Below, one piece after another: positions 4,056-32,111 of a stretch of 34,811 nt of DNA. The notes beneath the pieces are model-generated. The model was not told where the DNA came from. It made no database searches and saw only the letters and a list, made by a program, of their open reading frames with translations. The DNA comes from Syntrophobacter sp. SbD2. GTDB lineage: Bacteria > Desulfobacterota > Binatia > UBA9968. How positions within the stretch are numbered: position 1 is the stretch's first letter; each line of letters starts with the position of its first letter. The stretch spans positions 1 through 34,811 of the forward strand of contig CAMDBU010000052.1 of assembly GCA_945889495.1 (NCBI GenBank). The letters are read 5' to 3'. A program made the translations under genes and the position numbers.

Positions 4056-4138
4056 TCACCACAGAGGGCACAGAGTTCACAGAGAAAAAATTTCTTCGCT
4101 CTTCCGACCCTCTGTGTCCTCTGTGTTCTCTGTGGTGA
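4056..4138. repeat. Intergenic word palindrome, CACAGAG type
   Basis: The left arm (4056-4084) repeats the word CACAGAG with small changes. The right arm (4108-4138) is its imperfect reverse complement built from CTCTGTG. The loop is about 23 bases. It sits between the two fdh genes, which run in the same direction, so a transcript could fold a long hairpin here. The word family is common in environmental genomes; its role is unknown. Confidence 0.8.
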
Positions 4139-14316: not shown

Positions 14317-14931
14317 GTGGCGCAGATCAATCCAACCCCCGATCCCAATCGTTCGGTTTTCATCAACTGTCCCTACGACGCTGAATTCGCTCCCCTGTTC
14401 GATGCCATCGTGTTCGCAACGGTGTGCTGCGGCTTTGTGCCGCGTAGCGCGCTCGATTCGGGCAGCGTCGCCGAGCCGCGCATGGCGCGGATCACCCGGG
14501 CGATGTTCTCGTCGAAGTATTCCATACATGATTTATCGCGCTGCAAAGGCGAGGGCAGCGAGCAGTTGGCGCGCTTCAACATGCCGCTGGAGCTCGGCAT
14601 CGCCATCGCGCGGCGATATACGGAAATCGACGAAGCGCAGAAGCATGATTGGCTACTGCTCGTGCCACAGGGTCATCAATACGGCAAGTTCATTTCCGAT
14701 CTCGCCGGCTTCGATCCGAAAACCCACGACGGGACGGTTAAGGTGATGGTGCCGAGGGTGATGTCGTGGCTAAGAACCCGGCCGGACGCGGTGGACACGC
14801 CGGACCCGCCGGAAGTTTTGGCCGCGCTGCCAAATTTCGCTCAGGCGAAAGCCGCGTTGGCACAAACTTGGAACGACGATATTCCTTGGGCTGATATCCT
14901 GCTGGCCGCCAAGGAGCATGTGCCGGCTTAG
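14317..14931 (+). CDS. 'FINCPYD' family protein, deoxyribosyltransferase/TIR-like fold, function unknown
   Basis: 204 residues from a GTG at 14317, six bases after the TIR gene stop. Signatures are SVFINCPYDAEFAPLFDAIVFA, GFVPRSALD, KYSIHDLSR and ARFNMPLELGIAIA. This set defines a widespread uncharacterised family. The fold expected is flavodoxin-like, close to nucleoside 2-deoxyribosyltransferase and TIR. The invariant Glu (Glu92, in MPLELG) would be catalytic. The C-terminal part (150-204) is helical. Close coupling to a TIR gene suggests a two-gene module acting on a nucleotide or NAD+. Start choice is uncertain because no strong ribosome binding site is visible. Confidence 0.65.
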   Translation: MAQINPTPDPNRSVFINCPYDAEFAPLFDAIVFATVCCGFVPRSALDSGSVAEPRMARITRAMFSSKYSIHDLSRCKGEGSEQLARFNMPLELGIAIARRYTEIDEAQKHDWLLLVPQGHQYGKFISDLAGFDPKTHDGTVKVMVPRVMSWLRTRPDAVDTPDPPEVLAALPNFAQAKAALAQTWNDDIPWADILLAAKEHVPA

Positions 14932-14938
14932 AGCGGTT

Positions 14939-15331
14939 TCAATCCTTCGCCGCTTCGTACATTTCTAAAAACTTCTCAGCGCCGATGGCGTAAGCGTCAG
15001 TGCCGTCGGGGTTGTTGGAGACTAGGTAGTCGCCGATCTCATAGGCGGTCTCGCCTTCTTTGGTTTTGACCTTGCCTGGCTGATCGGCGATCTCGGCCCA
15101 GACCGGCGCGGACTTGGTGTAGACGCCGGGGCTGACCTGCTCGTAGGTTTTGGCGAAGGAATCTCCGGATACCGTGTACTTGTCGCCGTTGTTGTCGACC
15201 AGCCAGTCGCCGCGTTTGCAGACCTGCTGGCCGCCCCATTTGTTGTAGGAGAAACCTTCGGTGTCGAGGTCGAGTTGGACGGCGGTGATGAAGGATGTCG
15301 GCTTCTTTTTATACTTTCGTCTGGTCGCCAT
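14939..15331 (-). CDS. Small protein with duplicated 'GDYLV/GDWLV' modules
   Basis: 130 residues from the ATG at 15331, with AAGGAG eight bases upstream. After a basic start (MATRRKYKKKP) it has two copies of one module: 'CKRGDWLVDNNGDKYTVSGDSFAKTYEQVSPGVYTK' and 'YEIGDYLVSNNPDGTDAYAIGAEKFLEMYE'. Both hold G-D-(W/Y)-L-V, then an Asn/Asp turn and a FxxxYE helix. Similar PGDYLV-type small domains occur in phage and plasmid-borne proteins of unknown role. It converges on the FINCPYD gene, leaving seven bases between stops, so it closes the accessory island. An ORF start at 15385 is rejected. Confidence 0.6.
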   Translation of the reverse strand: MATRRKYKKKPTSFITAVQLDLDTEGFSYNKWGGQQVCKRGDWLVDNNGDKYTVSGDSFAKTYEQVSPGVYTKSAPVWAEIADQPGKVKTKEGETAYEIGDYLVSNNPDGTDAYAIGAEKFLEMYEAAKD

Positions 15332-15460
15332 GGTGGGCTCCTTTGGCTTCGTTATGCATATTACCAAGCTGGCGGCGAATGTCACGGTGCTATTTCCGCG
15401 CGATCCCGGGCGTTCCCGCGATGGGTGGCTTGAGTTGAGGAGGTTCGGATTCGGATGTTC

Positions 15461-15566
15461 TCTCGCAAAGGCGCAAAGACGCTAAGTTCGGAAGATCAGG
15501 AGGACCGATCCCAAGACATTTGTGTTCCAGGCTTCCTACCCTTGGCGTCTTTGCGCCTTTGCGAGA
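15461..15566. repeat. Intergenic palindrome with 22-bp perfect arms, CGCAAAGGCGCAAAG type
   Basis: The arm TCTCGCAAAGGCGCAAAGAC plus GC (15461-15482) faces its exact reverse complement at 15545-15566, with a 62-base loop. The 326-bp gap 15332-15657 otherwise holds no gene. The words match those of the palindromes near 6094, 17838 and 19421. The left gene and right gene diverge here, so it cannot be a simple terminator for either. Confidence 0.85.
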
Positions 15567-15657
15567 GATAATCTTATTTCTGCGTCTTCGCTGGGCGATG
15601 TTGACGATTCAACATCCGCGGTGATAGGTTCCAGGCAATTCAATTCGGAGGTGCTGC

Positions 15658-16449
15658 ATGGCTGAACGGGTTTGGGAAAAATTTCTTTCGGAGCAGGACA
15701 AAGCTACTTTGGTTGGCAAGGCGGAGCGGCGCATCGGTTTTGGCGAGCGTCCGGCGCTGTTGTTGATCGATCTTTATCGTTGGGTGTTTGGCGACAAGCC
15801 GGAGCCGGTGCTGGAATCGATCAAGACTTGGCCGGGGAGTTGCGGCATGTCGGGGTGGGATGCCTTGCCGCATATTCAAAAGCTCTTGGCCAAATGCCGC
15901 GAGGTCGGTATCCCGATCATCCATGTCACCGGCATGGACGGTGTCGCGGTGGAGCCCTGGGCGTTTCGCCGCGACACCAAGAAGCGCGCGACGATGTCCG
16001 CGGAGGAACTCGACCGCTTCCGCCGCCGCTACGACATCGTCGACGAGGTGAAACCGATCCCCGGTGAGACCGTGTTCAAAAAAGTTTCGCCGTCGGCTTT
16101 CTGGGGCACGCCGCTGATCGGCCATCTGAATTTTCTCGGCGTCGACACCATCCTCACCTGCGGCGAGAGCACCAGCGGCTGCGTGCGCGCCAGCGTGGTC
16201 GACGGCACCACCAACCGGCTGCGCATGGTGGTCGCCGAAGAATGCGTCTTCGACCGCCATGAGGCTTGCCACGCGATTAACTTGTTCGACATGAATCAGA
16301 AATACGCCGACGTGCTGCCGCTAGACGACATCATCAAATACCTCGACGGCTGGCGCGCCGAGAAAGCCGGCCAGGTCGGCTACGCCAACAACAGCATGGA
16401 GTATCTGAAGGATCTCGCCATCGGCGAGGACTATAAAGGATTACGATAA
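15658..16449 (+). CDS. Isochorismatase-family cysteine hydrolase (N-carbamoylsarcosine amidase-like)
   Basis: 263 residues with the catalytic triad of the family: Asp38 (LLLIDLY), Lys (141 or 142, in VFKKVSPSAFWGT) and Cys175 in CGESTSGCVRAS. Such enzymes hydrolyse amides or carbamoyl compounds, such as carbamoylsarcosine, biuret or ureidoacrylate. The substrate cannot be told from sequence. It has a strong ribosome binding site, GGAGGTGC. The neighbouring gene converges on it and encodes an MFS transporter, which may or may not be functionally related. A creatininase-like gene lies 6 kb away, which makes an amide-nitrogen scavenging theme possible. Confidence 0.85.
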   Translation: MAERVWEKFLSEQDKATLVGKAERRIGFGERPALLLIDLYRWVFGDKPEPVLESIKTWPGSCGMSGWDALPHIQKLLAKCREVGIPIIHVTGMDGVAVEPWAFRRDTKKRATMSAEELDRFRRRYDIVDEVKPIPGETVFKKVSPSAFWGTPLIGHLNFLGVDTILTCGESTSGCVRASVVDGTTNRLRMVVAEECVFDRHEACHAINLFDMNQKYADVLPLDDIIKYLDGWRAEKAGQVGYANNSMEYLKDLAIGEDYKGLR

Positions 16450-16451
16450 GA

Positions 16452-16529
16452 ATTGGAGTAATGGAGTGGTGGAGTATTGGAGTGTTGGGGTTCGGACAAC
16501 CCACTACTCCACTACTCCATCACTCCAAT
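16452..16529. repeat. Intergenic word palindrome, TGGAGTA type
   Basis: The left arm repeats ATTGGAGTAATGGAGTGGTGGAGT-type words. The right arm (about 16499-16529) is the reverse complement, from CCACTACTCC words. A GGTTCGGACAAC loop separates them. The stop codon of the MFS gene at 16520 is inside the right arm. The same word family recurs at 30271-30357. Confidence 0.85.
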
Positions 16530-17704
16530 GGTTTGTCCGCCCGCGCTGCTTTCGCTCTCAACCCCAGCCACGCCACTACCAGGATCACGGCCGAGATCGC
16601 GGCCATGCCGTGATAGCCGGTCTCGTAGCCGAAATGTTGCACCAATAGGCCGGCCATCAGCGGTCCCAAAGTATTGCCCAGGGAGGTGCACGAGCGCGTC
16701 AGTCCAAGCGCCAGAGCTTTGGCTTTGGGCCCCGCCGATTGGAGCGCGAAGGTGGTCGCGCCGACATTCGAATATCCAAAACCCATGGTCATCACCGTCA
16801 GCGGCAGCACTAGCGATAGGACACCGGAGCCGTAGGGTTGCATGATGAACATCGGGATGCCGATGGCGACGCCCGAGAGAATCACCCGCGGCGCGGTGAT
16901 GCGGTCGCACAGCCAGCCGCCGGTGTAGCGGCCGAAGGTGTCGGTGATGCGCGAGATCGCGACAACTGTGCCGACCCAGTCGAGCGCGTAGCCGCGGCTC
17001 ACCGCCAGAAACGGAAAGGCCAGCCGAGTGACGCCGACCAACATGACGAAGGATTGGAAGATCGCCAGGGACGAGGCGAGAAACGACGGCCGGGTTAATA
17101 ACGTTTTGCCCTCGCGCCAGAGCTGCACGGAACTTTCCTGGGTGATGGCGCGGGAGCGATGGGCACCGCCGAGAAGAATCAGGATCAAGCCGATCATCTG
17201 CGGTAGCGCGTAGAAGGCGAACAGTATCTGGGAGCCGAACATTTTGCCGATAAAGCCGCTGGTGAGTGGCCCTAGCGAAAAACCGATGCCCAGGGCGGCG
17301 GCGACTTGTCCCTGGACGCGGCCCTGTTGGCTCGGTTCGGATTGTTCGAAGGCAATTTTGCGGATCGACAGCGCGAACATCGCTTCGGTGATGCCGAGGA
17401 GGGTGAACGCGCCCATGAATACCACCGGCGATTCGACAAAAATGTGCGCAACGACGGCGACGACGATGGACGCCGCCGAGGCGGCGACGATCAACCTGCC
17501 GGAGCTGAAATAGCTCGCCAAGATTCCCGAAGTCAGATCGGAGCAGACCCGGCCGATGCCGTTGACCACCAACGGCACGCTTGCCGCGGCGATGGAGTAG
17601 CCATGATCTTTCATGAAGAACGGCGCCAACATGGCGGCGCCAGAGGAGCCGGCGATCTGGACGATGGCGGCCAGCGAATAGAGCTGCAGCGGTTTGATTT
17701 TCAT
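16520..17704 (-). CDS. MFS transporter
   Basis: 394 residues from the ATG at 17704. Twelve hydrophobic segments are seen, typical of the major facilitator superfamily. 'GRYTGGWLCDRITAPR' is the cytoplasmic loop motif of MFS carriers. The C-terminal end (VAWLGLRAKAARADKPLE) takes its last codons, TTG GAG TGA, from the palindrome. Substrate is unknown. It is a polytopic inner-membrane protein. The longer frame to 17860 would add 52 non-hydrophobic residues and is rejected. It converges with the cysteine hydrolase gene. Confidence 0.82.
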   Translation of the reverse strand: MKIKPLQLYSLAAIVQIAGSSGAAMLAPFFMKDHGYSIAAASVPLVVNGIGRVCSDLTSGILASYFSSGRLIVAASAASIVVAVVAHIFVESPVVFMGAFTLLGITEAMFALSIRKIAFEQSEPSQQGRVQGQVAAALGIGFSLGPLTSGFIGKMFGSQILFAFYALPQMIGLILILLGGAHRSRAITQESSVQLWREGKTLLTRPSFLASSLAIFQSFVMLVGVTRLAFPFLAVSRGYALDWVGTVVAISRITDTFGRYTGGWLCDRITAPRVILSGVAIGIPMFIMQPYGSGVLSLVLPLTVMTMGFGYSNVGATTFALQSAGPKAKALALGLTRSCTSLGNTLGPLMAGLLVQHFGYETGYHGMAAISAVILVVAWLGLRAKAARADKPLE

Positions 17705-17837
17705 GGCGGCGATGCGAAGTTGCCGAGTCAGCGCGGTTATACGCGATGGCCGGCGGCTTTTCCACTGTGGACAGCGAGAATCGACCTTGATAGAACCACA
17801 ACGTTGCGCGGCGCAACCGGAGGGATTCGGAATGTTA

Positions 17838-17914
17838 GCCGCAAAGAACGCAAAGGGCACAAAGGGTCCGGATAAAGAAATTTCCGAACTTCGTGTCCTT
17901 CGCGTCTTCGTGGT
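17838..17914. repeat. Intergenic imperfect palindrome, CGCAAAG / CTTCGTG words
   Basis: The left arm (17838-17867) uses GCAAAGAACGCAAAGGGCACAAAGG. The right arm (17887-17914) uses AACTTCGTGTCCTTCGCGTCTTCGTGG. The two match only in part, as if arms of two word families were joined. It lies between the divergent MFS and rhodanese genes. Confidence 0.6.
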
Positions 17915-17962
17915 GAATAATCGGTTTTCAAACTACCAAGCCCCCGCGGCGAAAGGAAGAAA

Positions 17963-18277
17963 ATGGAAATTCCGCAGATCCAGATTCACGAGGCGAAAAA
18001 GAAGTTTGACGAGAAAAGCTCTTTGTTCGTCGACATTCGCGATCCGGGGTCGTACCAGCAGGCGCATATTCCTGGCGCGATTCATTTGAACGATGGCAAT
18101 GTGCAGGAGTTCTTGCAAAACACCGCCAAGGATTGCGACGTCGTGGTCTACTGCTATCACGGCAACAGTAGCATGGGCGCGGCGGGATATTTTCTTGAGA
18201 ACGGTTTTACCAACGTCGCCAGCATGATGGGCGGCTTCGAGGCTTGGCGACAGGTGTATGAACATGAGGCGGAATGA
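17963..18277 (+). CDS. Single-domain rhodanese (GlpE-like thiosulfate sulfurtransferase)
   Basis: 104 residues forming one rhodanese domain. The active loop is CYHGNSS, with Cys64 as the persulfide carrier and the six-residue loop of sulfurtransferases. Earlier elements are 'FVDIRDPGSYQQAHIPGAIHL' and the end 'GFTNVASMMGGFEAWRQ'. GlpE-type enzymes move sulfur from thiosulfate to a thiol such as cyanide or thioredoxin in the cytoplasm. The ribosome binding site AGGAAGAAA lies close before the ATG. It is about 70 bp upstream of an NHL-repeat gene on the same strand. Confidence 0.9.
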   Translation: MEIPQIQIHEAKKKFDEKSSLFVDIRDPGSYQQAHIPGAIHLNDGNVQEFLQNTAKDCDVVVYCYHGNSSMGAAGYFLENGFTNVASMMGGFEAWRQVYEHEAE

Positions 18278-18282
18278 AAAAT

Positions 18283-18316
18283 AGTTGCCAGTTCCCAGTT
18301 GTTGGTTGTCAGTTGG
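18283..18316. repeat. Single-arm word repeat, AGTTGCCAGTT type
   Basis: AGTTGCCAGTTCCCAGTTGT is followed by more GGTTGTCAGTT words. No reverse-complement arm follows. It lies just after the rhodanese stop. Confidence 0.5.
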
Positions 18317-18348
18317 GGAGATAGGGACTCGGAAGCGATAGAGGATTT

Positions 18349-19302
18349 ATGAGCGTGATTATCGGCAGCGGCGAATTTCGTTACGAAGTGATTGAGGGCT
18401 TCGGCAAGTTGCCCGATGACTGGACGTTTCACGAAGTGGCGGCGGTGGCGGTGGACAATAAAGATCAGCTTTACTGCTTCACCCGCGGCAAGCACCCGGT
18501 GATCGTGCTCGACCGCGACGGCAATTTTTTGCGCTCCTGGGGCGACGGCGTGTTCAAGCGCGCCCATGGCGCGACCATTGGACCCGACGAGACGATCTTT
18601 CTCACCGACGACGGCGATCACACCGTGCGCAAGTGTGCACTCGACGGCAAGGTGCTGATGACCATCGGCGTGCCGGGCAAGTCTTCGACCTATCAGGGCG
18701 GCGAGCCGTTCAATCGCTGCACGCATGTGGCGTTCTCGCCTCAGGGCGATATTTACGTGTCGGACGGCTACGGCAACTCGCGGGTACATAAGTATTCGCC
18801 GGATGGCAAGTTGTTGTTGTCGTGGGGCGAGTCGGGTGCCGATCCGGGGCAATTCAACATCGTTCACAACATCGTCACCGACAAAGACGGCTGGGTCTAC
18901 GTCGCCGACCGGGAAAATAACCGGGTGCAAGTGTTCGACGGCAACGGCAAGTACGAAACCCAATGGAACAACATGCACCGTCCCTGCGCGCTCTACATGG
19001 ACACCACCAAGAAGGATCCGCTGTGCTACGTCGGCGAGTTGGGCCCGGGACTCGGCGTCAACTTGAACGCGCCCAACCTCGGCAACCGCGTCGATATCTA
19101 CGACAAGCAAGGCAAGCGGCTGGCGCGCCTGGGCGATATCTTCGCCGGCGAGAAGCCGGGCCAGTTCATCGCGCCCCATGGCCTGGCCATCGATTCCCGC
19201 GGCGATATTTATGTCGGCGAAGTGTCCTGGACGATCATGGGCCAACGCTTGCAACCACCGCGCGAACTGCGCAGCCTGCAAAAATTGAAGAAGGTGAATT
19301 AG
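18349..19302 (+). CDS. NHL-repeat beta-propeller protein (peptidyl-alpha-hydroxyglycine lyase-like)
   Basis: 317 residues with several NHL-type blades, for example 'FSPQGDIYVSDGYGNSRVHKYSPDGKLLLSWGESG', 'VTDKDGWVYVADRENNRVQVFDGNGKYETQW' and 'GLAIDSRGDIYVGE'. The set resembles proteins annotated as 6-bladed propellers or PAL-like (amidating lyase) domains. No signal peptide is present, so it is cytoplasmic. Homologues in these lineages sit beside xenobiotic or ring-cleaving enzymes, but none is here. The function is unknown. Confidence 0.75.
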   Translation: MSVIIGSGEFRYEVIEGFGKLPDDWTFHEVAAVAVDNKDQLYCFTRGKHPVIVLDRDGNFLRSWGDGVFKRAHGATIGPDETIFLTDDGDHTVRKCALDGKVLMTIGVPGKSSTYQGGEPFNRCTHVAFSPQGDIYVSDGYGNSRVHKYSPDGKLLLSWGESGADPGQFNIVHNIVTDKDGWVYVADRENNRVQVFDGNGKYETQWNNMHRPCALYMDTTKKDPLCYVGELGPGLGVNLNAPNLGNRVDIYDKQGKRLARLGDIFAGEKPGQFIAPHGLAIDSRGDIYVGEVSWTIMGQRLQPPRELRSLQKLKKVN

Positions 19303-19313
19303 GAACGGAGATT

Positions 19314-19448
19314 TAACCACAGAGAGCACATAGGTCACAAAGGAAGAAATCAGATTCGGAATGGTGGCGGCAAAGAACGCAAAGTACACATAGGTTTTAA
19401 GAAAAATATTCTTTTCCGAACTTGGCGTCTTGGCGCCTTTGCGGGAGT
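19314..19448. repeat. Intergenic repeat cluster, CACAGAG and CAAAG words
   Basis: AACCACAGAGAGCACATAGG (from 19314) is a single CACAGAG-type arm. It is followed by GCGGCAAAGAACGCAAAGTA (about 19367-19394), with a reverse-complementary CTTGGCGTCTTGGCGCCTTT at 19421-19440. It fills the gap between the NHL and DUF427 genes. Confidence 0.6.
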
Positions 19449-19477
19449 AACATCCGAATCCGATTGTCGAGGTCATC

Positions 19478-20290
19478 ATGCAGAGCAATATCACTCAAGA
19501 GCGCGTGCCGGTTCATGGCGACCCCGGCCATTGGCTGCATATCTCCCAGAGTCCGCGCCATGTGCGGGTGTTTTTGGGTGGCGTGGCGATCGCCGATAGC
19601 AAGCGCGCCAAGTTGGTGCGTGAAGCGGAAGTCTTGCCGGCTTACTATTTCCCCAAGGAAGATGTGCGCACCGATCTGTTTGTCGCCAGTGCGGCGAAAT
19701 CCACTTGTCCGGTCAAGGGTGGCGCGGCCTATTGGTCGGTCAATGTCGACGGCAAGTCAGCGGCGAACGCGGCATGGAGTTACGTCGAGCCTTTGCCGGA
19801 GGCGGCGGCGATCAATGACCATTTCGCCTTTAACTGGCCGCAGATGGACAAGTGGATGGAGGAGGAAGAGGAACTTTACAAGCACGCTCGCGATCCCTAC
19901 AAGCGCGTCGATGCGATTCCGAGCGCGCGCCATGTGCGCGTGGCCATCGATGGTCAAACCGTCGCCGAGACCCGCCGGCCGCATTTACTGTTCGAGACCA
20001 ATCATCCGGTGCGCTACTACATGCCGCGAGAAGATGTGCGCATGGATTTGCTGGTCGCCAGCGCGACCACCTCGCGCTGCCCGTACAAAGGGCCGGCGTC
20101 CTACTGGTCGGTCAAGCTTGGCAATGAAACCTTCAACGATCTGGTCTGGGGCTACATGGAAACCATCCCCGAGTGTCCGAAAATCAAAGGTTTGTTGAGC
20201 TTCTTCCACGAGCAGGGCTGCGATATTTACGTCGACGGCGAGTTGGTCGAGCGGCCCAAGACCAAATGGGCGCGGCCATTGCGCAGGTGA
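19478..20290 (+). CDS. Tandem DUF427 domain protein
   Basis: 270 residues containing two DUF427 domains: residues about 25-115 (PRHVRVFLGGVAIADSKRAK ... YYFPKEDVRTDLF ... CPVKGGAAYWSV) and 150-235 (ARHVRVAIDGQTVAETRRPH ... YYMPREDVRMDLL ... CPYKGPASYWSV). Each half has the conserved 'R-x-D-L ... S-x-C-P-(V/Y)-K-G' pattern. DUF427 proteins are small beta-tent-like proteins of unknown function; doubled versions are known. A C-terminal tail (KIKGLLSFFHEQGCDIYVDGE) resembles part of a third half-unit. Cytoplasmic. It is on the same strand as the NHL gene. Confidence 0.85.
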   Translation: MQSNITQERVPVHGDPGHWLHISQSPRHVRVFLGGVAIADSKRAKLVREAEVLPAYYFPKEDVRTDLFVASAAKSTCPVKGGAAYWSVNVDGKSAANAAWSYVEPLPEAAAINDHFAFNWPQMDKWMEEEEELYKHARDPYKRVDAIPSARHVRVAIDGQTVAETRRPHLLFETNHPVRYYMPREDVRMDLLVASATTSRCPYKGPASYWSVKLGNETFNDLVWGYMETIPECPKIKGLLSFFHEQGCDIYVDGELVERPKTKWARPLRR

Positions 20291-20300
20291 GGGATGGGGA

Positions 20301-20388
20301 TTTAACTACGAAAAACACGAAAGGCACGAAAGGCACGAAAGGGATCCGAAATTTATTTTTTGCGTCGTTCGTGTTTTTCGTGGTTAAA
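20301..20388. repeat. Intergenic palindrome, ACGAAAGGC / CGTGTTTTTCG words
   Basis: TTTAACTACGAAAAACACGA and two 9-bp tandem copies of GGCACGAAA form the left side. The right arm at about 20366-20388 (TTCGTGTTTTTCGTGGTTAAA) is the reverse complement with few changes. It lies between the DUF427 and alcohol dehydrogenase genes. Confidence 0.8.
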
Positions 20389-20414
20389 ATTCTTGCTCTC
20401 CATTAGACAAAACC

Positions 20415-21380
20415 ATGCAAGCACTTCACTGGGACGGCCATGACCTACGTTTCGATCCCGCCTACCGGGAGCCCACGGCGCCGACCGATGCGTCATCGAT
20501 GGCGCTGGTCAAAGTCCACCTCGCCGGCGTTTGTTCCACCGATTTACAAATTCTCAGAGGCTACATGGATTTCACCGGCGTACCGGGCCATGAGTTCGTC
20601 GGTTCGGTTGTTGATGGGCCGGAGCCATGGCGCGGCAAGCGGGTGGTCGGTGAAATCAACTTCGGCTGCGGCGTTTGCGACAGCTGCCGGCGCGAGCTGG
20701 CGCGGCACTGCGCCAACCGCAGCGTCATGGGCATCGTCAGCGCCGACGGCGCTTTTGCCGAATATGTCGCCGTGCCGGTGCATAATCTGCACGCAGTGCC
20801 AGACAGCCTGAGCGATGAAGAAGCGGTGTTCACCGAGCCGCTGGCGGCGGCTTTCGAGATATTGACGCAGATCCACATCGACCATGGCCATGAAGTTCTG
20901 GTCGTCGGTGACGGCAAGCTCGGCAATCTCTGCGCGCAAGTGTTGGCCTTGACCGGCGCGCGCGTGACGGGGCTGGGTAAGCACGCCGACAAACTCGCCT
21001 TGATCAAAAAAGCCGGCGTCAGGACGATTCTATTAACCGACTGGCAGGCGCGCCAGTTCGACATCGTCGTCGAAGCCACCGGCTCGGCGTCGGGGTTGGA
21101 GCTGGCGCTCGGCGCGGTGCGGCCGCGCGGCACGCTGAGTCTCAAGAGCACCATCGCCGGCAAGCATCAGGTATCGCTCGCACCCATTGTCATCAACGAG
21201 ATCAACGTTATCGGCTCGCGCTGCGGCCCGTTCCCCGACGCGCTCGACGCCTTGGCGGCCAAACGCGTGGCGGTGACGCCGCTGATCGAGGAAACGTTCT
21301 TATTGTCGCAAGGTCTAGTTGCGCTTGCGGCCGCGGGACGACCAGGTGCGAAAAAAATAATGCTACGCGCGACCCCGTAG
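20415..21380 (+). CDS. Zinc-dependent alcohol dehydrogenase (MDR family)
   Basis: 321 residues. Catalytic zinc ligands are Cys40 (AGVCSTD) and His59-Glu60 (PGHEFVG). The structural zinc loop has Cys85, Cys88, Cys91 and Cys99. The NAD(P)-binding motif 'VLVVGDGKLGNLCAQVLALTGARVTGLGK' keeps GxGxxG in the form GDGKLG. It is slightly shorter than most family members (about 340-350). The substrate is unknown; threonine/sorbitol dehydrogenase-like members look closest. No operon partner is clear. It starts 12 bases after a gene-poor stretch without a strong ribosome binding site. Confidence 0.85.
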   Translation: MQALHWDGHDLRFDPAYREPTAPTDASSMALVKVHLAGVCSTDLQILRGYMDFTGVPGHEFVGSVVDGPEPWRGKRVVGEINFGCGVCDSCRRELARHCANRSVMGIVSADGAFAEYVAVPVHNLHAVPDSLSDEEAVFTEPLAAAFEILTQIHIDHGHEVLVVGDGKLGNLCAQVLALTGARVTGLGKHADKLALIKKAGVRTILLTDWQARQFDIVVEATGSASGLELALGAVRPRGTLSLKSTIAGKHQVSLAPIVINEINVIGSRCGPFPDALDALAAKRVAVTPLIEETFLLSQGLVALAAAGRPGAKKIMLRATP

Positions 21381-21444
21381 CAACCTGACAATCCAACCTT
21401 GACAACTTTAGGATCGGCGCTTAGTTTGAGTGCGAGGTGACTTT

Positions 21445-21645
21445 ATGGCGCGTACTAACATTGAGCTCGATGACCGCTTGATCAATCAAGGACTCAAAGT
21501 CTTTAAGTGCAAATCGAAAAGCGAACTCGTCGATCTCGCCCTAAAGGAACTTTTAAAAAGCTCCAAACGCAAGGAAATTCTGTCCCTGCGCGGCCGTATT
21601 CATTGGCAGGGAGACCTTGACGAATCGCGCCGTGGTAGGCCGTGA
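21445..21645 (+). CDS. VapB-type antitoxin
   Basis: 66 residues: 'ARTNIELDDRLINQGLKVFKCKSKSELVDLALKELLKSSKRKEILSLRGRIHWQGDLDESR'. The ribbon-helix-helix N-terminus and the toxin-wrapping tail fit the VapB (DUF2191) group. GAGGTGA lies before the ATG at 21445. Its TGA overlaps the toxin's GTG start by four bases, the standard coupling. It represses its own operon and neutralises VapC in known systems. The toxin is broken here, so the antitoxin is an orphan in effect. Confidence 0.85.
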   Translation: MARTNIELDDRLINQGLKVFKCKSKSELVDLALKELLKSSKRKEILSLRGRIHWQGDLDESRRGRP

Positions 21646-22039
21646 TCGTCGTCGATACCACGGTCTGGATCGAGTTTTTCGGTGGCAGCGGATCGCGTTT
21701 CGATCTCCATCTGGCCGAGCTCATCGAAACCGGCGCGGCGATCGCGCTGACCGATCTTATTTACTGCGAAAGTTTGCAGGGCATCAGAGAGGATCGGGCC
21801 TTTGCTCGGGTACGGCGGATGTTGTTGCGTTATCCGATCCTGCAAAGGGCGAGCTCCACATTGTCGAGGAGTCCGCGGCGATTTACCGGGACTGCCGTAA
21901 ACGCGGCATGACGATTCGAAAAACCATCGATTGCTTGATTGCCGCCACTTGTCTGGCGGCGGGCGCGGAGCTATTTCACAACGATCGGGATTTCGCTGCG
22001 ATTGCCCGGGTCCGCGATCTCAGGATTTATCGTCCGTGA
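21642..22039 (+). pseudogene. VapC PIN-domain toxin, split by a frameshift
   Basis: From the GTG at 21642 the frame reads MIVVDTTVWIEFFGGSGSRF, then LIETGAAIALTDLIYCESLQGIREDRA, matching VapC as far as LLRYPIL. After about 21845 the match continues one base back in another frame: KGELHIVEESAAIYRDCRKRG, then TIDCLIAATCLAAGAELFHNDRDFAAIARV, ending at 22039. The two halves together make a full-length PIN domain with acidic residues Asp5, Glu43-like and the NDRDF motif. One lost base near CAAAGGGC explains the break. A sequencing error is possible. As it stands the toxin should not be made. Confidence 0.85.
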
Positions 22040-22093
22040 AGCGGTCGCGGGTTCTATCTCTCAACGTAAGTGACTAACTGGATGAGGTGATTC

Positions 22094-22843
22094 ATGAAAT
22101 GGGGTGAACAGCGTTGGCCGCAGATGAAGGCGATGGACCGGTCGAAGATCGTCACGATACTGCCCACCGGGTCGATGGAGCAGCATGGGCCGCATCTGCC
22201 GTTGCAGGTGGATCATTTTATCGCCAACCGCATCGCCGAGGATTTGGAAAAGCGCGTGCCGGAGATTCTCACCTTGCCGCCGGTGTGGGCCGGGACGTCC
22301 GGGCATCACATGGATTTCCCCGGCACGATCACGCTGCGGCCGCGGGTGTTTATCGATCTGCTGCGCGATGTGTGCGTCTGCATGCATGCCCATGGCTTTC
22401 GCCGGATGATTCTGCTCAACGGCCATGGCGGCAACCGCGCCAGCTTGCAGGTGCTCGGGCAGGAGCTCTACGCCGAGATGGGCTTCTCGATCAACGTGAT
22501 CGCCTACTGGGATCTGGTGCCGCAGCTGGTTAAATCGCTGAAGAAATCCAAATCCAAAGGCATGGGCCATTCCGGCGAGCTAGAAACGTCCTTGATGCTC
22601 TACCTGGCGCCGCAGCTGGTCGACTTGAGCGCGGTGCCGGACGGCTTCCGCTCGGATCAATTGCACCACAGCCGTTTCATTTCCGGCGAGGGCATCACGC
22701 GTTATGTGAATATCAAAGAACACTCCGAGATCGGCGTCGACGGTTTCCCCGCCGCGGCCAGCGCCAAGGATGGCGAGCTGTTTTACCAATCGGTCTTGAC
22801 CGAGTTGGAAAAGGTCGTGCGCGAGCTGCAAGCGGAAGCGTAG
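22094..22843 (+). CDS. Creatininase-family amidohydrolase
   Basis: 249 residues with all creatininase motifs: PTGSMEQHGPHLPLQVD (metal-binding Glu and His), GTSGHHMDFPGT, LLNGHGGNRASLQ and GHSGELETSLML. The family includes creatininase, mycofactocin precursor peptide peptidase (MftE) and ArfB-type enzymes, all using two metal ions to open amide bonds. No mycofactocin or riboflavin genes are near, so the substrate stays open. The start has GAGGTGATTC upstream. Confidence 0.88.
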   Translation: MKWGEQRWPQMKAMDRSKIVTILPTGSMEQHGPHLPLQVDHFIANRIAEDLEKRVPEILTLPPVWAGTSGHHMDFPGTITLRPRVFIDLLRDVCVCMHAHGFRRMILLNGHGGNRASLQVLGQELYAEMGFSINVIAYWDLVPQLVKSLKKSKSKGMGHSGELETSLMLYLAPQLVDLSAVPDGFRSDQLHHSRFISGEGITRYVNIKEHSEIGVDGFPAAASAKDGELFYQSVLTELEKVVRELQAEA

Positions 22844-22860
22844 CGGGTTAGAAAAAATTG

Positions 22861-22894
22861 CACCGCGGCGATGCGGAGAACGCGGAGTTGAGAG
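22861..22894. repeat. Single-arm word repeat, GCGGAGAACGCGGAG type
   Basis: CACCGCGGCGATGCGGAGAA continues with CGCGGAGTTGAGAG. It belongs to the same general class of short-word intergenic repeats but has no facing arm. Confidence 0.4.
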
Positions 22895-22945
22895 AAAGTC
22901 GATCACCATCGAGTCGGCTCGTCTCATCGTGCCAGTAGGTTGGCG

Positions 22946-24379
22946 TCAATCTGGGAAGAAATCTCGGATGCTCAGGTGGCTGGCCGCGACGGGCTCGTCA
23001 TCCACAGCGCACACTGGCGACAGCAGCGCTTCCAAGAACGGCCGCATATGGGCGAGCCGTTGCAGGCGGATCACCGCGTTCCACGCCGGTTCGAATTTTT
23101 TCCAGCCGGCGCTGTAGGCGAAGTGTTTGATGCGGTGCTTCAGGCTTTCGTGGGCGCTGCTGGCGCGGGCGATGGAGCGCCATCGGTAAAATTCACGGTA
23201 GGCCCAATCGTAGCCTTTTTTTAGCTCGGCGGCGGACATGCCGCGAGGCTCAAAGATCACCGTGCGCGTGTCGTAGCGGTCCCAATCGCGGCTGACGATG
23301 CGGCCCGCGGCCTCCATCTGGGCGAACAAGCCGGTACAGGGATAGGGAGTGAGGATATGAAAAGTTGCGGTGGTGATGCCGTTGTCGATGGCCCAATCGA
23401 CGGTGCGGGCAAAGACACTCGGATCGTCGCCGTCGAAGCCGAAGACAAAACTGCCGTTGATCATGACGCCATTGTCATCGAGGCGACGGACCACTGCGCG
23501 ATAGTCGCGGCCGAGATTCTGCCGCTTTTGGCTTTGCGCCAAACCGGTTGGACTCAGGCTTTCGAAGTCGACGAAGAGGCTACGTAGCCCGGCGCCCACG
23601 GCGCGTTCCAAAAGGTCGCTGCTAAGGATCGAGTCCACGGTGGCGGCGCCTTGAAATATTCTCCCCATGCCGCGCATGCCGTCGAACAGCGCGCGGGCGA
23701 AGCGCGGGTTGCCAAACAGATGATCGTCGAGGAAATATAAGTGGCGGCCCGGTAAACGGGCGATCTCCGCCAACGCATCATCGACGCGCTGGGTGTAGTA
23801 CGTCCGACCGCCTTGGAAAAAGCCGTCTTTGTAGCAGAAGTTGCAGTGATGCGGGCAGCCGCGCGAGACCACGATGGAATTGGGCACGAGATAGAGGTGG
23901 CGCTTGATCAGGTCGCGGCGTATCGGCGGTAGGCCATCGAGCGTGCGGATCGGCGATGAATAAACTGTCTTGGCGCAGCCTTCTGCCAAGTCGTTTAGGA
24001 ACTGCGGGAAAGTAAATTCACCGGGACCGAGGAAGATCGAGTCCGCGTGTCGCGCCGCCTCGTCGGGTAGCGATGTGACGTGCAGACCACCCAGCGCAAC
24101 GTAGCTACCCTTGCCGCGGTAAAAGTCCGCAAGGCGGTAGGCGCGACTGGCGTTGGTGATGTAGACCTGGATCACCACCAGATCGGGCGTGTCATCGAGA
24201 GCGATGGTTTCGACATGTTCGTCAACGATGGTGACGTCAACCCGCTCGTCGAAATAGGCGGCCAGCGTCGCCAAACCGAGCGGCGGGAAGAGCGAGTATT
24301 TGATCGGCCGCCAGTAGGGACTGGTGGCTTCGGTTAACGCAAGTAGAACGAGTTTGGCGCTTCTGATTTGACGTTTCAT
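22946..24379 (-). CDS. B12-binding-domain radical SAM protein
   Basis: 477 residues. The N-terminal cobalamin-binding domain runs about 25-145 (FPPLGLATLAAYF ... VDEHVETIALDDTPDLVVIQVYI ... YVALGGLHVTSLPDEA). The radical SAM domain has the CxxxCxxC cluster at Cys175, Cys179 and Cys182 (SRGCPHHCNFCYKDG). The usual DxHxxG base-off motif is imperfect (DEHVET). Such proteins catalyse methylations or ring contractions on unactivated carbons. HpnP- or HpnR-like methylases are related, but I see no hopanoid genes. A strong ribosome binding site is not clear. Confidence 0.8.
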   Translation of the reverse strand: MKRQIRSAKLVLLALTEATSPYWRPIKYSLFPPLGLATLAAYFDERVDVTIVDEHVETIALDDTPDLVVIQVYITNASRAYRLADFYRGKGSYVALGGLHVTSLPDEAARHADSIFLGPGEFTFPQFLNDLAEGCAKTVYSSPIRTLDGLPPIRRDLIKRHLYLVPNSIVVSRGCPHHCNFCYKDGFFQGGRTYYTQRVDDALAEIARLPGRHLYFLDDHLFGNPRFARALFDGMRGMGRIFQGAATVDSILSSDLLERAVGAGLRSLFVDFESLSPTGLAQSQKRQNLGRDYRAVVRRLDDNGVMINGSFVFGFDGDDPSVFARTVDWAIDNGITTATFHILTPYPCTGLFAQMEAAGRIVSRDWDRYDTRTVIFEPRGMSAAELKKGYDWAYREFYRWRSIARASSAHESLKHRIKHFAYSAGWKKFEPAWNAVIRLQRLAHMRPFLEALLSPVCAVDDEPVAASHLSIRDFFPD

Positions 24380-24431
24380 GCCGCTACTATGGCCATGAGC
24401 TGTGCAGGTAGCGGCAAGAAAGTTATGAGAT

Positions 24432-25280
24432 TCAACTCAGCTTATGTGCAAGTCCCTCGACAAATTCCTTGGCTTGGCCGAGATCATAGCCGTAGAGCCG
24501 GCGCGCCATGGCGATGGCGCTGATTTTATCGCCGGACTCGGCCAGCTCGAGCAGGCGGGTTTCTTGTTCGGCACGGCTGAGATCTTCCAGGTTCGCTAAA
24601 TCCTTTCTGGCCGACTCGGCTGGCCGCACCATGGTGTGGCGGGTCAGCTTTTCCAGGATCACGTCAAGCTTCGGTTTGACCGCCCATTCGATTCGCAATA
24701 TCTGCGGCGACGGTAAGAGCACGGGGAAGTGTTGATAGCGCGTCGAAATTTTCTCATCGCCGATGCGGCGCGTGCGCAGCACCGTATCGGTTTCATTGGC
24801 CAGGGCGATGGCGAGCTCTCTGGTGTCGCCGGCTAGTTCGAGCTCCAACCATCGCTGGGTGCGGGTCGTCGTGTTCGGATGGCGATTGTCGTCGAGTTCG
24901 GCGATCTCCTTGAGTTCGTCGACCCGTTTGGCCGAGCGGATTTCCGCGTGGGGGATGAAGACCACGGTGTAATCTTGCGCCGGGAAGTGGCCGTTGAGAT
25001 AGGAGCGAAATTTGATCAATAGGCCGTGATCGGTTAGGCGCACCAGCCAGTTGGACGGTTGGAAACAGGCGGTCACACTTTTCTGCATGATCAGCAAAAA
25101 GAGCAGTATCACGCCGGCGAAATAGTAACCGAGCCAGCTGTCTTTGAGCGCGCTTAGAAAAATGACCACGACCGTGACCGCGACCATGGCGCAAACCACG
25201 ACGAGTGCTTGGACGCGCGAATAGGCGCAGATTAGGTCGCGGTCGCTGATCGGCGCTTCCGTTAGGCGGTGGAGCTGCAT
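24432..25280 (-). CDS. Membrane protein with C-terminal L7/L12-like tail, function unknown
   Basis: 282 residues. Two membrane spans lie at about 25-45 (VQALVVVCAMVAVTVVVIFL) and 50-68 (WLGYYFAGVILLFLLIM). A long cytoplasmic beta-rich part follows. The end 'AIAMARRLYGYDLGQAKEFVEGLA' resembles the helical motif of ribosomal L7/L12-like or UBA-like tails ('GLGLKEAKDLVE'). No homologue is recognised. It is the fourth gene of the minus-strand run after the sirtuin gene. Confidence 0.6.
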   Translation of the reverse strand: MQLHRLTEAPISDRDLICAYSRVQALVVVCAMVAVTVVVIFLSALKDSWLGYYFAGVILLFLLIMQKSVTACFQPSNWLVRLTDHGLLIKFRSYLNGHFPAQDYTVVFIPHAEIRSAKRVDELKEIAELDDNRHPNTTTRTQRWLELELAGDTRELAIALANETDTVLRTRRIGDEKISTRYQHFPVLLPSPQILRIEWAVKPKLDVILEKLTRHTMVRPAESARKDLANLEDLSRAEQETRLLELAESGDKISAIAMARRLYGYDLGQAKEFVEGLAHKLS

Positions 25281-25342
25281 AGGTGCGCGTCATTGTCGCC
25301 CATCGAAATGGAAATGCCAAATCGCCGGGCCGCGCACGCGGC

Positions 25343-26095
25343 TCAAGCGTCGAGGGTCAGCGATTTGAGTTGCCCGAAGAACTCGCCAATGGCGCCGTTG
25401 TAAATAAAGTCGGCGTAGTCGTCGAGCGGCGTCGGATCGCGGTTGACGATGGCGAGTAGCGCGCCGCTGCGTTTGGCGATGACCGGAAACGATGCCGCCG
25501 GTTGCACCTGCAACGATGAGCCGATGACGATGAAGACATCGGCCGCTTCGCTCCAGCGTTGGGCGCGCTGCATGGCCTCCACCGGCATGGATTGGCCGAA
25601 GGAAACGTTGGCCGATTTCAAGTAGCCGCCGCAGTCGTCACAGGTGGGCGTCGGCAGATGCTCGTGCCAATCTTCGTAGACGTCTTTGGGTAGGTAGACT
25701 TTGCCGCACTGGAGGCAAGTGACTTTGCGGTCGGTGCCATGGAGTTCCACCAGCCGCGCGTCCGACGTGCCGGCGATTTTGTGCAGGCCGTCGATATTTT
25801 GCGTGATCAAGCCCAACAGCTGGCCGCGCTGTTCGAAGTCGCGGATCGCCTGGTGGCCGATGTTTGGCTGGACGGTTTTGAAAAGTTCGTAGGTGGCTTT
25901 TTTCAATTGCCAGTGCTGCACCCGCGCCGCTTCGCTGGCGAGAAAATCTTGCAACAGCACGGGCTGGTATTTACTCCAGACGCCGCCGGGGCTGCGGAAG
26001 TCGGGTACGCCGGATTCGGTGCTGATGCCGGCGCCGGTGAAAAATACCAGAGCCTCGGACTTGCGCACGCGGGTGGCGAACTCTTCCAGCTCCAT
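25343..26095 (-). CDS. cobB: NAD-dependent protein deacylase, sirtuin family
   Basis: 250 residues with the full Sir2 signature: GAGISTESGVPDFRSP (21-36), TQNIDGLH (98-105), catalytic His119 (ELHG), zinc Cys127/130/152/155 (CLQC ... CDDC) and IGSSLQVQPA. It removes acyl groups from lysine using NAD+. It is class III-like in length. The start follows the FKBP gene by about 20 bases, so the two are probably cotranscribed. It is not joined to any defence gene, so a metabolic role is favoured over a Sir2-type anti-phage role. Confidence 0.92.
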   Translation of the reverse strand: MELEEFATRVRKSEALVFFTGAGISTESGVPDFRSPGGVWSKYQPVLLQDFLASEAARVQHWQLKKATYELFKTVQPNIGHQAIRDFEQRGQLLGLITQNIDGLHKIAGTSDARLVELHGTDRKVTCLQCGKVYLPKDVYEDWHEHLPTPTCDDCGGYLKSANVSFGQSMPVEAMQRAQRWSEAADVFIVIGSSLQVQPAASFPVIAKRSGALLAIVNRDPTPLDDYADFIYNGAIGEFFGQLKSLTLDA

Positions 26096-26114
26096 GAACT
26101 ACGCTCGCGGCTGA

Positions 26115-26750
26115 TTATTTTTTCGCCGGCTCGGCGGGCTTGGCCGGTTGCGCCGGAGTGGCGGCTTTGGCGGGCTCCGCCGGTTTCGCCGGGGTGGCGG
26201 ACGGAGCGCCAGCCGCCGGTGGCGGCGGCGCCGGTTGCACATCGACGATCTTGACGTTGAAGAACAAAGTCTTGCCGGCCAACGGGTGATTCATGTCGAT
26301 GACCACGGCCTTTTCCTTGATCTCATGCACGCGCGCTTTCATGGGCCGACCTTGGTCGTCTTGGCCCTGAAGGATGGCGCCGACTTTGAGGCCGTTGGGC
26401 GGCAGTTTATCCTTGGGGATTTCTTGAAAGGCGTTTTTGTTGACCGGGCCATAGGCGTCTTCCGGTTTGACGGTGACGTTTTTCTCGCCGCCGGCTTTCA
26501 TGCCGGTGAGCTCTTTTTCCAGGCCGGGGATCATCATTTTTTGGCCATGCACGTACTTGAGCGGTCCGCGGTCTTTGCTGGCGTCGATCACCTTGCCGTC
26601 GGCGCCCTTGAGGGTGTACTCCATGCTGACCAACATGCCGTCCTTGACCAGGTTATCGTTCTTGGTTTTCTCCGCCGCGGAGGCCGATTGGGTCAAAGCG
26701 AGTAGTAACATCGCCGCGACGACGACCCAAGCGATAAGTTTTTCGTGCAT
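26115..26750 (-). CDS. Exported SlyD-like FKBP peptidyl-prolyl isomerase
   Basis: 211 residues. A Sec signal peptide (residues 1-26, core VVVAAMLLLALTQSASA) precedes an FKBP domain with the SlyD-type arrangement: 'VSMEYTLKGADGKVIDAS', 'YVHGQKMMIPGLEKELTGMKAGGEKNVTVKPEDAYG' and 'IDMNHPLAGKTLFFNVKIVDV'. The insert-in-flap region is present. The C-terminal 40 residues are a low-complexity Pro/Ala/Lys tail (PAKPAEPAK repeats). It should fold proteins in the periplasm. A second copy is at 30366. Ribosome binding site GAGGGGAA. Confidence 0.88.
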   Translation of the reverse strand: MHEKLIAWVVVAAMLLLALTQSASAAEKTKNDNLVKDGMLVSMEYTLKGADGKVIDASKDRGPLKYVHGQKMMIPGLEKELTGMKAGGEKNVTVKPEDAYGPVNKNAFQEIPKDKLPPNGLKVGAILQGQDDQGRPMKARVHEIKEKAVVIDMNHPLAGKTLFFNVKIVDVQPAPPPPAAGAPSATPAKPAEPAKAATPAQPAKPAEPAKK

Positions 26751-26852
26751 GTAGTTCCCCTCTCAAACGTTTACTGCAATTGGAAAGTTCGCCCAGAGTA
26801 CATGGTGCCGGCGATGAACTCAACGAAATAAGCCGTTCCAGGTCGCGGGATG

Positions 26853-26909
26853 GTTATCTTCGTTCGAGATGACCGCTAGTAATTGTCATTTCGAGCGTAG
26901 CGAGAAATA
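26853..26909. repeat. Intergenic inverted repeat, GTCATTTCGAGCGTAGCGAG type
   Basis: GTTATCTTCGTTCGAGATGAC (26853-26873) and GTCATTTCGAGCGTAGCGAG (from 26885) form imperfect facing arms of a repeat found widely between bacterial genes. It lies just after the substrate-binding protein stop at 26914. Confidence 0.65.
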
Positions 26910-26913
26910 TCAT

Positions 26914-27894
26914 CTACTTGCCGAGCCGCTCGAAGAATCCATCTTTTTGTATTTCATCGAGCAAGCTCATATCGACAAAGCGTGCCATCTCGGCTTCGCT
27001 CTTGCCCAGGGTGGCGATCAAGTTGCACCAGCCATTCATTTCCGTACGCGGGATGCTGGTGAAGCTGTCGGCGTAGAACTTGCGGGTTTCCTCCAACGCA
27101 GCCGCGTCGCTGACGCCGGTGTAGCGCGACAGCGCGCGGTAGGCCGACTCGGGGTTGCGTTTGATGCGCGCGATCGCTTCGACGTAGCCCTGGAGAAAGC
27201 GTTTCAACAGCGGCCGCTGTTTGTCCAAACCGGCGCGGGTCACCACCACCGAGGTATCGGTGAGGTCGGCGTAGGGGCGCAGGTCGGCGATGACGGGAAA
27301 GCCTTCTTTGCTGGCGATCAGCAGTTCTGGATAGGCGAAGACCGTCGCGTCGACCACGCCTTCGCGCAGCGCCGCCATGCGGGTCGGGCTCGGGCCCAAG
27401 CTCAAGAGAGTCACTCGGCTGAAATCCAGATTCCATTTCTTGAACGCCAGCTGTAAGCCCAACTCGCTCGATCCGCCGCGCGAGGCGATGGCGATCTTCT
27501 TGCCGAGCAAATCTTTCACTTCGCGGATCTCCTTGCGCGCGACGATTTTCCAATTGACCTGATTCATCACCGTGGCGATCATGGTCAAGTCGGCTCCGGC
27601 GATGCCGGCACGGGCGACCGTCGAAGCTCCGGAGTGGGTGAGCAGCAGTTCGCCGCTGAGCAGCGTTTGAATGATCCGCGCGCCGCCGGCGATCAGCAGG
27701 ATCTCGAGATCGAGGCCGTATTTTTTATCCAACCCTTCCTGCTTCTGCACCCAGATCGGCAGATGATAGCCGGTGGTACCGGCGAAGCTGGCGCGCAGTT
27801 TTGTTAGCTGCGCTTGGGTCTGCTTTGGCAGCGCGACGACGAAGCAGCCAACAATTATTACCGCGGATAGAAGATGGCGCATCGATTTTCGCAT
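26914..27894 (-). CDS. ABC transporter substrate-binding protein, SsuA/NMT1-like
   Basis: 326 residues. A signal peptide (1-28, ending TQAQ) is followed by the NMT1/THI5-like binding fold: 'RASFAGTTGYHLPIWVQKQEGLDKKYGLDLEILLIAGGARIIQTLLSGELLLTHSGAST'. 'VVDATVFAYPELLIASKEGFPVI' and the C-terminal helix follow the same family. Ligands in the family include nitrate, sulfonates, pyrimidines and aromatic acids, so specificity is not known. No permease or ATPase gene is close, so it is an orphan binding protein. A good site AGAGGTCGGA is present. It lies directly downstream of the LLM gene on the same strand. Confidence 0.82.
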   Translation of the reverse strand: MRKSMRHLLSAVIIVGCFVVALPKQTQAQLTKLRASFAGTTGYHLPIWVQKQEGLDKKYGLDLEILLIAGGARIIQTLLSGELLLTHSGASTVARAGIAGADLTMIATVMNQVNWKIVARKEIREVKDLLGKKIAIASRGGSSELGLQLAFKKWNLDFSRVTLLSLGPSPTRMAALREGVVDATVFAYPELLIASKEGFPVIADLRPYADLTDTSVVVTRAGLDKQRPLLKRFLQGYVEAIARIKRNPESAYRALSRYTGVSDAAALEETRKFYADSFTSIPRTEMNGWCNLIATLGKSEAEMARFVDMSLLDEIQKDGFFERLGK

Positions 27895-27923
27895 TCCGAC
27901 CTCTGCCTTGCGATTTCAGACTG

Positions 27924-28916: not shown

Positions 28917-28933
28917 AGAAGCTCCTTCATACA

Positions 28934-29012
28934 AATGGATAATGGATAATGGACAATGGATAATGATTTCTGAGGCCGAAAATTATCCATTATCCATTTT
29001 CAATTATCCATT
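28934..29012. repeat. Intergenic palindrome, AATGGATAATGGATAATGG type
   Basis: The left arm (28934-28966) repeats AATGGATAATGG. The right arm (28981-29012) carries TTATCCATT words as its reverse complement. The last residues of the MFS gene (CAA TGG ATA ATT GAA AAT GGA TAA) are written in the right arm, so the stop codon is palindrome sequence. Confidence 0.88.
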
Positions 29013-30264: not shown

Positions 30265-30270
30265 GGGGGA

Positions 30271-30357
30271 ATGGAGTATTGGAGTGATGGAGTGGTGGGT
30301 TTCGGACGGTTCTTAATCTTAAGCCATCATTCCAATACTCCAGTACTCCATCACTCC
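30271..30357. repeat. Intergenic word palindrome, TGGAGTATTGGAGTGATGG type
   Basis: The left arm 30271-30298 (ATGGAGTATTGGAGTGATGG and GAGTGG) faces the right arm from 30324 (CCATCATTCCAATACTCCAG and more). The loop is about 25 bases. It is the same word family as 16452-16529. Confidence 0.88.
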
Positions 30358-30365
30358 GGGTTGTG

Positions 30366-30938: not shown

Positions 30939-30972
30939 TGCCTCGATGCCGATGGTTTACCGAACAACTTCG

Positions 30973-30990: not shown

Positions 30991-31056
30991 AAAAATCGAA
31001 TACAACTAAATTGGCGCCACGATGGATTCTGGTGATGACGGCGCAAGTTCTCTGGG

Positions 31057-32090: not shown

Positions 32091-32111
32091 GGTGATTGCT
32101 ATCTTGAAGAT

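Follow-up and report, generated by a model that had tools for sequence, protein, structure and literature searches.

The window analysed here, a stretch of 34,811 nt, raises the question of why the stop codon of a gene should lie inside a repeated palindrome, and whether repeats of this kind arrive at transcript ends or are tolerated there. The palindrome in question and its neighbours are the following:

15658 to 16449, plus strand: isochorismatase-family gene, the convergent partner (PF00857, 6.1e-23)
16452 to 16529, no strand: palindrome of TGGAGTRN octamers, 78 nt, between the convergent genes
16520 to 16522, minus strand: TGA stop codon of the MFS gene, within a TGGAGTGA unit
16520 to 17860, minus strand: MFS transporter gene (PF07690, E 6.7e-32), start uncertain (17704 or 17860)

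The palindrome is built of a left arm, a loop holding TTCGGA, and a right arm that is the reverse complement of the left. With the MFS stop in the right arm, and only 2 nt separating the left arm from the end of the isochorismatase-family gene, the space between the two genes is taken up by the element. The last codons of the MFS gene, TTG (16528-16526), GAG (16525-16523) and TGA (16522-16520), are all located in the right arm, so that the earlier note was correct in deriving this stop from the TGGAGT arm. A rival ORF at 16512-17816 was rejected as an alternative to the MFS gene, as it had no Pfam match at E 0.001; orthologs of the MFS gene are carried by the genomes of relatives. We surveyed a sample of 1,644,111 nt, made up of stretches of 36 contigs and the window and amounting to about a third of the 5.64-Mb genome. 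The palindrome is taken as real because the first 834,811 nt (the first sample) gave 87 palindromes against 1 in one Markov shuffle, and because TGGAGTNNTGGAGTNNTGGAGT occurs 62 times in the 5.64-Mb genome in a triple-word search, the reversed control occurring 0 times.

The earlier note had counted seven palindromes in the window, which was not borne out, as the palindrome finder gives nine. Besides the focal element they include the following, listed without strand:

4056 to 4138: CACAGAG palindrome, loop with TTCCGA
15459 to 15568: CGCAAAG palindrome, loop with TTCGGAA
20301 to 20388: CACGAAA palindrome, loop with TCCGAA
28934 to 29012: AATGGATA palindrome, holding the stop of the MFS gene 28990-30264
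30263 to 30351: second TGGAGTRN palindrome, behind the FKBP-type gene 30366-30938, loop with TTTCGGA
33334 to 33403: CTCGTG palindrome, overlapping the final 6 nt of the thiolase gene (stop at 33398)

Three of the nine overlap a stop codon (MFS 16520, MFS 28990 and thiolase 33398), which agrees with the earlier count of three palindromes meeting a gene end. The thiolase stop does lie inside the CTCGTG palindrome, but it was not taken from the repeat, because the protein is 397 aa long in 7 of 7 genomes whatever stands behind the gene; judging from the sequences compared, the stop position is ancestral. At 17824-17865 and 19302-19447, CACAGAG-like words and CGCAAAG words also form half arrays and stacked arrays, with GATTCGGAATG between. 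The contig ends (1-146 and 34665-34810) are inverted copies of each other over 146 nt at 99%, probably a mobile-element end or another repeat where the assembly broke, and a PIN-like DUF5615 protein, perhaps with a toxin-antitoxin role, is encoded at 451-831 on the minus strand (2.9e-21).

Whether stop overlaps exceed random placement was examined using 1484 genes called in the sample by a dicodon model trained on that same sample, the calls thus being our own, and 181 palindromes returned by an ungapped palindrome search. In the window, the three overlaps among nine palindromes compare with 0.66-0.71 expected (P 0.020-0.027), and, with CDS overlap limited to at most 12 nt, two of eight compare with 0.30 expected (P 0.003); the window is where the idea arose, and its excess is not an independent test. 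Outside it there are 172 palindromes, 8 of them wholly in called CDS; a stop is overlapped by 11 of the remaining 164, a start by 7. No excess was seen in the first sample outside the window, neither with uniform placement (5/73 stops, 5.1 expected) nor with CDS overlap of at most 12 nt (4/70, 4.0 expected). In the larger sample, with CDS overlap of at most 25 nt, stops were overlapped by 8 of 159 palindromes where 16.7 were expected, and 0 of 300 trials came out as low. Expectations for the two samples are not comparable because the null models differ: the first-sample null (‘anywhere’) allows sites wholly in CDS and the larger-sample null does not, and placement ‘anywhere not fully in CDS’ expects 49.6 stop overlaps among the 164 palindromes of the larger sample. 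Three further stop overlaps occurred in 132 kb picked for TGGAGT matches and were kept out of the counts. For the sampled third of the genome, the excess of stop overlaps over random placement is thus refuted. Starts were avoided, with 3 of 159 overlapped against 19.2 expected under matched placement and CDS overlap of at most 25 nt.

If stops are not favored as such, the overlaps that do occur may be explained by the words of which the arms are made. The 11 overlaps outside the window involve AGTAAGG (3), TGGAGT (2), CTCGTG (1), AATGGATA (1), GCAAAG (1) and other palindromes (3), and in one of these last the gene end carries TTCGTAG, a feature on record for GTAG REPs. An overlap with a stop is seen in 7 of 32 palindromes with stop-bearing words versus 1 of 69 with stop-poor words (Fisher P 0.0012), a contrast that is partly post hoc in that the stop-bearing group was drawn after the first sample; it included GTTTCGAG, which proved stop-poor (1/18 frames). 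The proportion of inward frames stopped in the near arm is 22/24 for AATGGATA, 22/30 for AGTAAGG, 75/174 for TGGAGT and 20/78 for CTCGTG, the overlaps outside the window being, in the same order, 1/1, 3/5, 2/14 and 1/9; for the stop-poor words GCAAAG, CACGAAR and CACAGAG the proportions are 40/246, 23/180 and 0/54, with 1/35, 0/28 and 0/8 overlaps. The words rank alike by inward stops and by overlaps outside the window. Read outward, a stop is met in 9/174 frames of TGGAGT, 19/54 of CACAGAG, 40/180 of CACGAAR and 12/30 of AGTAAGG, and since the last three words do meet stops outward, the argument from inward versus outward polarity is not general. The stop overlaps therefore look like a by-product of stem words rich in inward-read stops. 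With the arms inverted, genes that run in from the left and from the right meet the same strand of the word, and for certain words this strand is rich in stops; a gene without its own stop, or entered near its end, would then stop soon after reaching the near arm, with the loss of few codons. It could also be that the overlaps are chance juxtaposition only and represent what dense coding gives. Uniform placement does expect 5.1 where 5 of 73 were observed, but the word contrast, its partly post hoc grouping notwithstanding, speaks against chance alone, which we consider highly doubtful.

The word families were named by hand-written regular expressions set after looking, and two palindromes labelled TGGAGT are in fact GTCTAG arrays (C3:57507 and C8:30551). 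Because CACAGAG, CACAAAG, CACGAAG and GCAAAG may be related to one another, it is safest to speak of ‘different words’ for TGGAGT, AGTAAGG, CTCGTG and AATGGATA. Outside the window, 1.61 Mb contain 111 word-array palindromes, most of them wholly intergenic, and nine named word families plus several unnamed ones occur in this one genome. At positions 5040-5252 of its contig C12 lies a nested palindrome with 85-nt arms, the outer part made of CACAAAG words and the inner part of GCAAAG words, with TTCGGAATC between.

The palindromes prefer gene 3′ ends and avoid starts. In tandem gaps the element is closer to the upstream 3′ end than to the downstream start in 80 of 109 cases, with median distances of 23 nt and 72 nt, respectively (P 7e-6), and convergent gaps are occupied 39 times versus 29.4 expected, divergent gaps 16 times versus 31.0. 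These figures, together with the avoidance of starts, uphold the suggestion that the repeats are tolerated at transcript ends. The 3′-end preference itself is not new, as published repeats already show it (PMC3733652, PMC4679880).

One explanation would be that selection has preserved the elements as transcription terminators that serve both convergent genes. For four window elements, all five predicted RNA folds were stabler than all 200 shuffles (z -3.9 to -7.5); both strands were folded for the focal element, whose region 16440-16545 gave -54.0 (plus) and -48.4 (minus) kcal/mol (z -7.5 and -6.4), and the enrichment in convergent gaps fits a terminator as well. Against this, T-runs (at least 6 T in 8 nt) are found at 6 of 220 array ends (2.7%; intergenic background 490/33,660, 1.5%) and none stands beside 16452-16529, and the orthologous MFS gap is without a palindrome in two relatives, G004 (9 nt) and G008 (27 nt). 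Since T-runs after the hairpin are so rare, most arrays are not ordinary intrinsic terminators, and selection for termination at both genes seems unlikely to us. A known Rfam RNA was rejected, with 0 matches at gathering score in 14900-34811. The function of the elements as 3′-end hairpins and the way in which they spread are inferred.

The same gaps in related genomes bear on how the repeats came to be there. In these comparisons the window gaps are counted among those of its own genome (G000), and for several gaps in which the finder detected no palindrome the words were identified by eye. In the MFS-isochorismatase gap, a TGGAGT palindrome supplies the MFS stop in both G000 and G001. The MFS ortholog of G002 runs into a TTCAAGG palindrome and stops within it (tail ...QGSTFKVQG*), G010 and G017 have REP-like sequences after the gene's own stop (by eye; the finder gave only a GTAG-type palindrome, in G017), and in G014, G020 and G015 (loci L074, L075 and L080) a CCGGCCGG palindrome sits in the coding part of the MFS ortholog, among its final codons and 6-8 nt short of the gene end. 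Because G001 shares TGGAGT at the focal gap, inheritance is there as possible as fresh arrival. TGGAGT triple words were found in 14 of 39 genomes, own included, all of them among the 23 of the window's family, and in none of the 16 genomes outside that family.

Different words can occupy one and the same gap. In a syntenic block, the words that the finder reports behind the thiolase gene are CTCGTG for G000, CCACGGAG for G001 and CACGAAG for G002, the flanking proteins of these genomes being 86-97% identical to the window's; by eye, G004 has half a GCAAAG array there and G006 has TGAGT words, and the gap is empty in G008 and G012. The LLM-MFS gap holds AATGGATA in G000 and G003, with an MFS protein of 424 aa in both (417, 421, 422, 426 and 471 aa in five other genomes), CACGAAG in G001, a half CACGAAG array in G002 (by eye) and TTCAAAC-like words in G004. 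At the last-named locus of G001 (L233, G001:C115), a GTAG-type hairpin stands inside the loop of the CACGAAG palindrome, beside TTTCGGA, and similar cases were seen by eye in G002 and in another G001 loop. In 42 orthologous pairs compared between G000 and the G001 sample, gaps filled in G000 were filled in G001 in 5 of 10 cases and otherwise in 3 of 32 (P 0.012; 0.08 when both genomes had to have a gap of 40 nt or longer). Of the five gaps filled in both genomes, four belong to the window, which was not randomly chosen. Two of these five carry different words, and two further pairs differ in words by eye, below threshold. One gap, between flanking proteins 86% and 98% identical, holds a GCAAAG palindrome and measures 126 nt in G000, but has a length of 9 nt in G001. 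Target-site duplications were sought in seven gaps against G001, whose sequences could not be aligned at the level of single bases, and no base-resolution insertion junction was seen in the gaps compared. The suggestion that the repeats arrive at transcript ends thus holds in part: the same gaps in relatives are short or hold another repeat, but insertion at the level of bases was not seen.

The elements could, on the other hand, target stop codons or gene 3′ ends through sequence- or transcription-coupled insertion, the overlap then being their mode of arrival. Such targeting would account for the three overlaps in nine window palindromes, the 3′ bias in tandem gaps and the gaps filled twice. 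However, overlaps outside the window fall below expectation, selection against 5′ insertions, as the avoided starts indicate, would produce the 3′ bias just as well, and the doubly filled gaps come mostly from the window and lose strength once short gaps are left aside. We regard targeting as very unlikely. Much more probably, and with good confidence on our part, the hairpins are repeats tolerated behind genes, with stop overlap as a side effect, and act as 3′-end caps if transcribed. They would be non-autonomous repeats that come, go and replace one another in those gaps in which selection puts up with them, and a transcribed hairpin would form a cap at the 3′ end of one flanking mRNA or of both. 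The clean null result means that repeats at gene ends need stop-rich words and tolerance, not stop targeting. In practical terms, final codons beside such repeats should not be equated with conserved protein.

A further feature links arrays that differ in their stems. Arrays of different 7-9-nt words share TTCGGA, TCCGAA, TCCGGA or close variants in their loops in 90 of 145 cases, where the pattern consists of seven hexamers and the null, summed over families, is about 10 of 145; the count drew on the sample, the window and the 132 kb picked for TGGAGT. TCCGAA alone occurs 58 times in the 145 loops versus 4.2 expected from intergenic DNA. By word, the apex is found in 18/29 loops of TGGAGT, 24/30 of CACGAAR, 24/41 of GCAAAG, 8/13 of CTCGTG, 4/9 of CACAGAG, 3/5 of AGTAAGG, 3/4 of AATGGATA, 3/3 of TTTTGGAT, 0/3 of GTTTCGAG and 3/8 of others, and among non-array palindromes in 1/30 dRS3-like and 2/41 other ones (together 3/71). 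Where unfused halves occur together, TCGGA precedes TCCGA 19 times and the reverse order is found 0 times. The core is missing from 55 of the 145 loops, and 38 of the 145 lack even a five-base half. The motif also adjoins GCAAAG arrays outside loops.

Because the pattern was written after the loops had been seen, G001 was chosen as a fresh test. With the pattern fixed beforehand, the apex was present in 9 of 14 G001 arrays (null 0.4, maximum 3 in 500), and in 2 of 10 palindromes binned as non-array, both of which are by eye word arrays missed by the period test. The G015 sample (GC 0.35, only 5 palindromes) had it in 0/1 array and 0/4 others. By eye, CACGAAG loops carry it at 5 of 5 distinct places in G005 and G015, in 0 of 2 in G004 and G007, and in 0 of 8 in G023, of another family; TGGAGT loops of G005 and G007, two other genera, carry it at 3 of 20 distinct places. 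CACAGAG, with a match in 10 of 198 genomes, own included, shows it in 0 of 12 loops in the nine other genomes of the phylum. The apex therefore looks lineage-bound, the words being more widespread.

Two things look new, namely the shared apex and the occurrence of different words in orthologous gaps; to our knowledge, an apex common to different stem words is without precedent. Tentatively, and as a possibility that we rate well below even, all these arrays could belong to one undescribed system with a constant apex (TTCGGA...TCCGAA, or fused TCCGGA) and interchangeable stem-word cassettes, which would let the stem in a given gap be CTCGTG in G000, CCACGGAG in G001 and CACGAAG in G002. A replicating or recombining enzyme might recognize the apex, or else new arms might be laid into old hairpins at the apex, as the nested palindrome of contig C12 could illustrate. 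If confirmed, the apex and the exchange of stem words would make the origin and spread of transposase-less palindromic repeats testable by comparing close strains.

Among known systems, the architecture of TGGAGTRN most resembles the multicopy sites of Geobacter metallireducens, where class 1 comprises four tandem octamers GTTGCTYN and class 3 five tandem heptamers MTYCTGA (Aklujkar et al. 2009, PMC2700814). Those sites occur as opposite-strand pairs, at variable distance in class 1 and in many copies, some multicopy sequences also lying within genes, and binding of IHF/HU has been proposed for the paired sites (PMC2700814). Shared with TGGAGTRN are the tandem octamers with a constant 6-mer followed by R and N (there YN) and the two opposite-strand sites at variable spacing; the word itself differs, and the passages of that paper at hand describe neither a shared apex nor stop codons nor an exchange of words between orthologous gaps (PMC2700814). 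By analogy, the palindromes could be paired binding sites for nucleoid-associated or regulatory proteins, which would suit the common design of six constant bases plus YN on opposite strands (PMC2700814) and the distribution of arm-to-arm differences in TGGAGTRN, which fall mostly at R (23/85) and N (44/88) and in 32 of 609 cells at constant positions, as for a repeated recognition word. The fact that a single genome contains nine named families of words besides several without a name, the location behind genes and the patchy presence in relatives count against this, and we hold it to be quite improbable. In G. bemidjiensis, intergenic direct repeats of 6 to 42 nt have been described (PMC2996986).

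GTAG/CGTC REPs likewise occupy convergent or tandem gaps (Di Nocera et al. 2013, PMC3733652), and in two genomes those in convergent gaps lie mostly within 20 bp of 3′ ends (PMC3733652). As described there, they are single short tagged stems, whereas the window arrays are made of tandem words. Membership of the TGGAGT element in the REPs was rejected, as neither end of 16452-16529 has a GTAG or CGTC tag. REP-like palindromes do coexist with the arrays as a separate class, 27 in the sample being labelled dRS3-like. A complete REP-associated tyrosine transposase (RAYT) gene lies at 32209-32739 on the minus strand (NCBIfam NF047646, E 9e-59; 1.2e-49 against the solved TnpArep chain 4er8_A), flanked by palindromes at 32112-32201 and 32766-32855 whose right arms begin with GTAG; a 31-nt arm of the flanking palindrome has three genome matches at no more than 2 mismatches, and in G001 the corresponding gap of 127 nt holds one such palindrome and is too short for a transposase gene. 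The neighbours of the window RAYT are thus other repeats, and word arrays are absent from the approximately 3-kb loci of three further Y1_Tnp matches.

The tandem heptamers TAACTGA of Beggiatoaceae are different from the window palindromes in being direct repeats (with one inverted case) located mostly just before start codons. In 13 cases they overlap the stop of an upstream gene, since the word yields stop codons whichever of the three frames is read (PMC4679880).
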